Source: Streptomyces sp. ITFR-16 (GTDB lineage Bacteria; Actinomycetota; Actinomycetes; Streptomycetales; Streptomycetaceae). Taken from it: DNA of 64,000 nucleotides. The translations under genes were made by a program, and so were the position numbers. Positions 16,288 to 21,174 of the stretch are shown here, in pieces; position 1 is the stretch's first letter; each line of letters begins with the position of its first letter. The stretch spans positions 6,262,001-6,326,000 of the forward strand of contig NZ_CP134609.1 of the NCBI RefSeq assembly GCF_031844705.1. Direction: 5' to 3'. The notes beneath the pieces were generated by a model. That model ran no database searches. It had not been told where the DNA came from and worked only from the letters and a program-made list of their open reading frames with translations.

Positions 16288-16303
16288 GTTCACATGCGTG
16301 GAC
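16288..16303. promoter_or_regulatory. Operator-like motif upstream of udh
   Basis: GTTCACATGCGTGGAC, 35 bp before the udh start. It shares the GTTCA-N6-TGGAC frame with the site before kdgD (16845-16860) and is close to the palindrome before the semialdehyde dehydrogenase gene (31371-31386). Confidence 0.5.
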
Positions 16304-16360
16304 AAGTTATGGAGCGGGGTGGGGGTGCGTCAAGGGTTCCCCGGTCCGGGGCGGAGGGTG

Positions 16361-16777
16361 CCGTCCTCAATCGCCGGACGGGCTTGGTGGTGCGGGTTGC
16401 CCGTGGGGGCGCTCTGTCCGGTGGGTGGGGGTGGGGTCCCTCCGGGGAGACTCCTCGGAAATGGCGTGTTCACCCGGGTCCGCGAGGGACCCGGGTCGTA
16501 CGCCATTTCCTGCGGGGACTCCCCTGCGCGCCCCCACCCGGCATCATTCGCGCCCGAACGCCGGTTGTCCGACTGCCGCAGACGCACGACGGCCGGTCCG
16601 GGGCCGTGCAGGGGAGTCCCCGCAGGACGACGAACATGTTCCCGAGTGCCAGTGCGTCGTCGCCGCACGTTCGTCGTCCGAGGAGTCTCCCCGGAGGGGC
16701 ACCGGACCCCCACCCGGACAGAGTGCGCACCCTGCGGGACACCCGCACCACCAAGCCCGTCCGGCGATTGAGGACGG
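16361..16777. repeat. 417-bp nested inverted repeat with cloverleaf geometry
   Basis: The outer arms 16361-16396 and 16742-16777 are a perfect 36-bp inverted repeat. They continue inward imperfectly to a perfect 19-bp pair, 16441-16459 with 16677-16695. Inside are three side hairpins lying end to end: 16458-16467/16500-16509 with an inner GC stem 16473-16481/16487-16495; 16510-16527/16608-16625 (18 bp, perfect); and 16625-16635/16669-16679 (11 bp, perfect). The result is a four-way junction with almost no unpaired bases. Reading frames on both strands here are by-products of the palindrome. The outer arm carries the CCTCAATCGCCGGA-type sequence dispersed in Streptomyces genomes, seen again near 63000. 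Confidence 0.85.
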
Positions 16778-16844
16778 AACCGCCCGCCCGGAGCACCCGC
16801 ACCCGCCTTGACCCGTGCCAAGCCACTGGCTTAGCGTGAGTCTT

Positions 16845-16860
16845 GTTCATAAATATGGAC
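16845..16860. promoter_or_regulatory. Operator-like motif upstream of kdgD
   Basis: GTTCATAAATATGGAC is an imperfect palindrome 44 bp before the kdgD start, in a local AT-rich patch. It has the same half-sites as the udh-side motif at 16288-16303. Confidence 0.5.
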
Positions 16861-16904
16861 GCCGATCAGAATTGTGCACGCCTGAACCTGCTCAGGGAGC
16901 GCCC

Positions 16905-20517: not shown

Positions 20518-21174
20518 ATGACCTTTGCGCCCACCCCGATTCCGTCCCGGACCCAGTACGTGCTGGAGGCGGTCAAGCACGCGATCCTCACGGCGCGGCT
20601 GAGACCAGGTCAGGCGCTCGTCGAGACGGAGCTGGCCGCGCAGTTCGGCGTCTCCAAGACCCCGGTCCGCGAGGCGCTCAAGACCCTCGCCGGCACCGGA
20701 CTCGTCGTCATGAGCCAGTACAAGGGCGCCACCGTGCGGCTCGTCGACGCCACCATGGCCCGGGAGGTGTACGACGTACGGCTGCTGCTGGAACCGGAGG
20801 CGCTGCGCCGCTCCGTCACCCGCAAGGCCTCGCTCGACGCGGCGCGGGAGGCCCTGGACCGGGCCGACGCAGCCGGGGACACGGCCGACAGGTCGCTGGC
20901 CAACCGGGACTTCCACCGGGCGCTCTACCTGCCCTGCGGCAATCCGCTGCTGGCCCGGATGCTCGACGAGGTCCGCGACCAGGCCGCGCTGGTGTCCACG
21001 GTCGCCTGGTCGGCCGTCCCGTCCTGGGAGCGGGAGGCCGCCGAGCACCGGGAGATCCTGCGGCTCGCGCTCGCCGACGACGCGGACGCGGCGGCCGGGG
21101 CCCTGCACGACCACATCGCCTCCTTCGTCCGCCGCGCGTTCCCCGACGACGAAGACGGGGGTGACGCGGCGTGA
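20518..21174 (+). CDS. GntR family (FadR subfamily, FCD domain) regulator
   Basis: 218 residues. The winged helix is at about 14-75 (LRPGQALVETELAAQFGVSKTP, then VREALKTLAGTGLV), and the all-helical FCD effector domain follows (YDVRLLLEPEALRRSV, RDFHRALY, HREILRLALADDADAA) with the Asp/His residues that bind metal and sugar-acid ligands. It heads an operon with a DapA-like aldolase/dehydratase and an IlvD-type dehydratase, so the effector is probably a sugar acid. Its own leader holds a CATATATG-centred palindrome. Confidence 0.9.
   Translation: MTFAPTPIPSRTQYVLEAVKHAILTARLRPGQALVETELAAQFGVSKTPVREALKTLAGTGLVVMSQYKGATVRLVDATMAREVYDVRLLLEPEALRRSVTRKASLDAAREALDRADAAGDTADRSLANRDFHRALYLPCGNPLLARMLDEVRDQAALVSTVAWSAVPSWEREAAEHREILRLALADDADAAAGALHDHIASFVRRAFPDDEDGGDAA

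Follow-up and report, generated by a model that had tools for sequence, protein, structure and literature searches.

A composite palindromic repeat with a three-hairpin core in Streptomyces, whose copies apparently evolve in concert within genomes

The window, a stretch of 64,000 nucleotides from the genome of Streptomyces sp. ITFR-16 (G000), carries between two sugar-acid genes a 417-bp palindrome (16361-16777), a DNA repeat that apparently recombines and does not serve the neighbouring genes as a leader. With a probability of about 0.5, we interpret it as a composite, REP/BIME-like palindromic repeat that would be homogenised by arm-seeded recombination. In this non-coding repeat, a REP-like palindrome common in Streptomyces is present twice, the copies facing each other, and encloses a three-hairpin core that is rare among genomes.

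The outer arms, the left one (16361-16397, plus strand) a REP-like repeat starting with CCGTCCTCAATCGCCGGACGGGCTTG and the right one (16741-16777, minus strand) a facing copy of the same repeat, pair perfectly over 37 bp, and the outer inverted repeat continues imperfectly (88%) over 16349-16408/16730-16789. Further inwards, a variable part of the outer stem (16398-16422, pairing with about 16716-16740) is followed by the inner stem P2 (16423-16456 with 16680-16715), which contains a perfect 19-bp pair. In this copy (L016), the base pair 16456-16680 closes three contiguous hairpins with no unpaired base at the junction: hairpin 1 (16457-16510, 54 nt, AAATGGCGT...ACGCCATTT), hairpin 2 (16511-16624, 114 nt, with a nearly invariant CTGCGGGGACTCCCCTGC stem and a variable top) and hairpin 3 (16625-16679, 55 nt, GGACGACGAAC...GTTCGTCGTCC). 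Apart from the two arms, the parts and the element as a whole carry no strand assignment. A first, sequence-only reading had described a nested palindrome folding as a cloverleaf, and both its coordinates and this architecture proved right. The RNA minimum free energy is -348.6 kcal/mol, against -213.5 +/- 6.5 for shuffled sequences (z -20.9; 0/100 shuffles as low), and with DNA parameters the fold reaches -199.8 against -107 for shuffled sequence (z -19.0). The predicted structure would allow a cruciform. The segment 16339-16360 (CCCCGGTCCGGGGCGGAGGGTG) is also found, identical, beside the second genomic copy, making the repeated unit slightly longer than first described. A further outer inverted sequence (GGGCCCTTGGGCGGGCGGCA ... 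TGCCGCCCGCCCAAGGGC) surrounds many copies (left flanks of L084, L167 and L057; right flanks at locus A, see below), and the original unit may therefore exceed the palindrome.

The element recurs at other loci, as had been anticipated. The ITFR-16 genome contains two full copies, one that is nearly full and one half copy, all unlinked and with unrelated flanks; the second full copy matches at 97%, and the nearly full one, which is without most of the left arm, at 95%. Matches (E 1e-15 or better) were obtained in 10 of 393 sampled Streptomyces genomes, a lower bound because only two candidates were scored per genome. G203 has 14 full copies, strain A0642 has about 17, and G094, G179 and G228 each have several, full or partial. 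When named genomes were scanned for exact matches to 21 bases of hairpin 2, 52 stretches came up, exclusively in Streptomyces (strains A0642, RKAG290, A0958, JH14, or43, ATexAB-D23, AW19M42, ADI95-17 and NBC_01669). By comparison of the udh gene, the main carriers rank among the closest relatives of ITFR-16; G190, also a close relative by this gene, has no detected core, its locus A holding arms only and the other two loci examined being empty. The element had no match in plasmid and phage collections, and a search of Rfam returned no known structured RNA family at E 1. According to rough ORF calls, 25 copies lie between convergent genes, 24 between co-directional genes and 3 between divergent genes (n=52, with 4 more unresolved), two of these three being the udh/kdgD copies of G000 and G203. 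The element is thus dispersed, intergenic and mostly located near gene ends.

The kinship of the outer arm with a dispersed Streptomyces repeat was borne out: the arm motif, by inspection CCGTCC-TCAATCGCC-GGACGG with a 6-bp stem and a 9-nt loop, is present in 71 of 101 Streptomyces genomes in up to 319 copies, and the backwards control gave none. It occurs 159-319 times per genome in some Streptomyces (G002, G075, G103 and G109) and is absent from others, and its expansion is independent of the core. An arm distributed genus-wide and a three-hairpin core confined to few genomes together indicate a composite of a REP-like arm and a rare core. The suspicion that only the outer arms might recur fell away, since the core recurs as well. 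Diverged core relatives (L023, L024, L025, L033, L034 and L044, in G089, G081 and G182) are partly without the usual outer arms, indicating that the history of the core is older than the composite.

Copies from one genome resemble each other far more than they resemble the copies at the same site in other genomes. Orthology was assigned within this sample of genomes by matching flanks, which gave 10 loci with 47 orthologous pairs. Between orthologues the core is 85.6% identical, a value that differs by only -0.001 from that for non-orthologous copies in the same pair of genomes. Within a genome, the mean core identity is 93.7%, and a tree of 57 cores groups them by genome with the minimum possible 8 changes. 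Orthologues that are no more alike than unrelated copies, combined with such likeness within genomes, point to concerted evolution. In 17 of the 47 pairs, at 3 of the 10 shared loci, the core is in opposite orientation relative to the flanks; the other 7 loci are without a flip. Within-genome diversity is about 0-0.3 inside the element and 0.3-0.66 outside, a rise near the edges which means that homogenisation is confined to the element; it is also raised in the variable part of the outer stem (16400-16419 and 16720-16739). The copies thus evolve in concert, apparently overwriting each other and sometimes flipping, and the simplest reading of these comparisons would be gene conversion among copies, together with inversion of the core via its facing arms. 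The main rival is recurrent insertion into the same sites, which could mimic conversion.

The three-branch junction is retained in 46 of 57 near-full copies folded independently, mostly with 0-4 unpaired bases. In the alignment of these 57 copies, standard base pairs make up 84.8%, compared with 37-47% after sliding one side, a contrast that is partly self-favouring because the structure was derived from one of the aligned sequences. The compensating base changes that had been looked for in the side hairpins were found in hairpins 1 and 3, becoming clear only once diverged relatives were added to the alignment: hairpin 1 has 16 distinct arm pairs and 24 cells with two-sided compensation, spread over 6 pairs, and hairpin 3 has 14 arm pairs and 10 such cells, over 3 pairs. 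In 1000 column shuffles, neither the number of compensating cells nor the percentage paired was ever matched; shuffles did reach the coarser tallies of pairs and of types. As kinship alone can beat column shuffles without selection, we take the compensation as support and not as proof of a maintained structure. Across genomes, pairing in the inner stem is better when both sides come from one copy than when they come from different copies (10 of 2000 permutations were as strong), and this advantage is less clear for the other stems; within genomes, cis and trans pairing did not differ, because the copies there are nearly identical. In L019, L029 and other G203 copies, and also in L031, the loop of hairpin 1 contains a piece of hairpin 3 (ACGACGAACAGG), as if the two hairpins had exchanged sequence.

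Occupied and empty sites, another expectation of the first reading, were both seen at the same loci, along with sites carrying arms only. At the udh/kdgD site, G000 and G203 have the element, which in G179 runs into a contig end; the two facing arms stand alone in G094, and most relatives examined, the carrier G228 included, are empty. Locus B (L106) is an empty site of 8-11 bp in many relatives, a short scar in G094, and occupied by partial elements in G179 and G099; at this one precisely resolved site, no target duplication was seen. Locus A (L107) is occupied in 8 genomes, reduced to arms in G190, and empty in G099, G272 and G147. Its flank CCGCCCGCCCAAGGG is common to most of the occupied genomes and missing where the site is empty, a pattern that suggests descent of the present occupancy from a single ancestral insertion.

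How would such copies remain alike? On our preferred reading, ectopic homologous recombination (gene conversion) that starts in the long arms would let one copy overwrite another, and the core would flip through recombination between inverted arms. In E. coli, long palindromes are cut by SbcCD, and recombination then repairs the break. By analogy, and more tentatively, the palindrome might extrude from DNA at replication and be cut by SbcCD, with another copy serving as template for repair; the fold itself would then drive the copying and homogenisation of the element. An SbcD gene is present in 8/8 genomes checked, and we infer SbcCD breakage as a candidate trigger of the exchange. The Y1/RAYT transposase (PF01797) was found in G179 and G203 and is absent from the carriers G000, G094 and G228, where a resident Y1 transposase is thereby rejected as the mobiliser. 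It is conceivable, if rather doubtful, that the element is transposase-free selfish DNA, a palindrome with a fully paired four-way junction that provokes its own recombinational repair and so spreads, flips and homogenises, the homology of its REP arms letting the core overwrite other copies.

The window copy itself invited a local explanation, namely that it regulates udh and kdgD as a leader RNA or an insulator, and it does lie between operator-like sites of the two genes. The right gene fits a 5-dehydro-4-deoxyglucarate dehydratase (kdgD); the left one is of the NAD-dependent epimerase/dehydrogenase type, its top match, Azf, being well below the cut-off, so that the name udh rests on context. 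A strict scan for consensus promoters and terminators gave no hits and no U-tract terminator, and we accordingly infer both promoters from conservation: TTGACG (16333-16328), 18 nt and TAACTT (16309-16304) for the left gene (16304-16333, minus strand), and TTGACC, 18 nt and TAGCGT for kdgD (16808-16837, plus strand). Their hexamers deviate too much from consensus for the strict scan, but are conserved among relatives whether or not these carry the element. The operator-like motifs (TTCACATGCGTGGACAAG, TTCATAAATATGGACG and TGATCAGAATTGTGCACG), at 16290-16310 and 16845-16880, are likewise conserved in relatives, and a GntR-family regulator is encoded at 20518-21174. The divergent -35 hexamers (16328-16333 on the minus and 16808-16813 on the plus strand) bracket the element, which places it upstream of both inferred promoters and in neither leader; this position rules out a leader RNA for udh or kdgD. 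Furthermore, the orthologous site is without the element in most relatives, which retain both promoters and the operator-like motifs, and the element also occurs at unrelated loci. We therefore consider a local regulatory role very improbable; in the udh/kdgD region, it would be no more than a spacer separating divergent promoters. The sequence-only reading, then, holds for a structured, recurrent element with occupied and empty sites and a dispersed arm, and gives way, by position, on the structured leader RNA.

Two broader alternatives concern the whole family. A structured RNA at gene ends, acting in termination, processing or stability and selected in transcripts, would account for the gene-end bias, for the junction retained in most copies and for the compensating substitutions, which could also come from selection at the RNA level; likeness within genomes would then reflect incidental gene conversion. 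A strand-specific RNA should not tolerate both core orientations at the same locus, however, the window copy is upstream of the two inferred promoters, sites with no element, a partial one or just the arms are common, and neither an Rfam match nor a U-tract terminator was found, which makes this explanation improbable. A non-autonomous transposable element, either a MITE or REPIN-like, might instead be moved in trans, with recent bursts and reinsertion at preferred sites producing the likeness. New sites must indeed have been gained somehow, and inverted-repeat ends, a non-coding sequence, occupied and empty sites and several copies per genome are what such an element would show. Nevertheless, individual loci are shared as occupied sites by as many as 8 genomes, most with a flank that empty sites lack, as a single ancestral insertion would leave; the resolved site is without target duplication, three carriers have no Y1 transposase, and insertion by itself cannot flip the core within an existing site. 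We regard mobilisation in trans as somewhat unlikely.

Recombination between composite palindromes, our preferred reading, would make this family a clean natural case for an old question, namely how palindromic repeats can spread and remain alike when no transposase is evident. Because several species have sites in common, while homogenisation acts per genome and cores are inverted in place, the family offers a way to measure gene conversion between dispersed palindromes. The udh/kdgD copy is also a caution against taking a conspicuous fold next to promoters for their regulator.

Streptomyces telomeres are rich in dense palindromes that can form several hairpins, a likeness with the present element, which differs in being multicopy and internal rather than at a replicon end (G000:C1:6278361 of 7902135 bases). 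MITEs are likewise short, non-coding and dispersed with inverted-repeat ends; here the inverted repeats are present, but no target duplication was seen at the one resolved site and no related transposase was found with the Y1 profile in G000, G094 and G228. A search of open-access papers found nothing on the arm sequence, nor on REPINs or RAYTs in connection with Streptomyces, an absence that is no proof of novelty. Enterobacterial BIMEs and REPs, and the GTAG- and CGTC-tagged REPs (PMC3733652), share short palindromic arms, dimers and a location mostly downstream of genes, and in the loose sense of a dispersed, intergenic, palindromic repeat mostly 3' of genes our element belongs with them, the three-hairpin core being extra here. 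The CGTC REPs, likewise without a dedicated transposase, have CGTC at one end, an 8-9 bp stem and a 4-5 nt loop, with none reported in Actinobacteria (PMC3733652); the arm described here, with its 6-bp stem and 9-nt loop, is not of this type. Evolution of REPs through gene conversion is an old proposal (Higgins 1988, as cited in later work). Another close comparison is with REPINs, REP doublets that form hairpins (PMC3116915) and for which compensating changes have also been described. Our element has the same plan, two inverted REP-like units and a spacer giving a long hairpin, and is intergenic and dispersed. It differs in the enclosed part, which is about 280-300 bp with three conserved hairpins where the REPIN spacer is short, in its within-genome homogenisation and core flipping, and in the lack of a RAYT-type transposase in G000, G094 and G228, to which the REPIN mechanism thus does not apply. 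In anatomy, it is like a REPIN with an oversized core.
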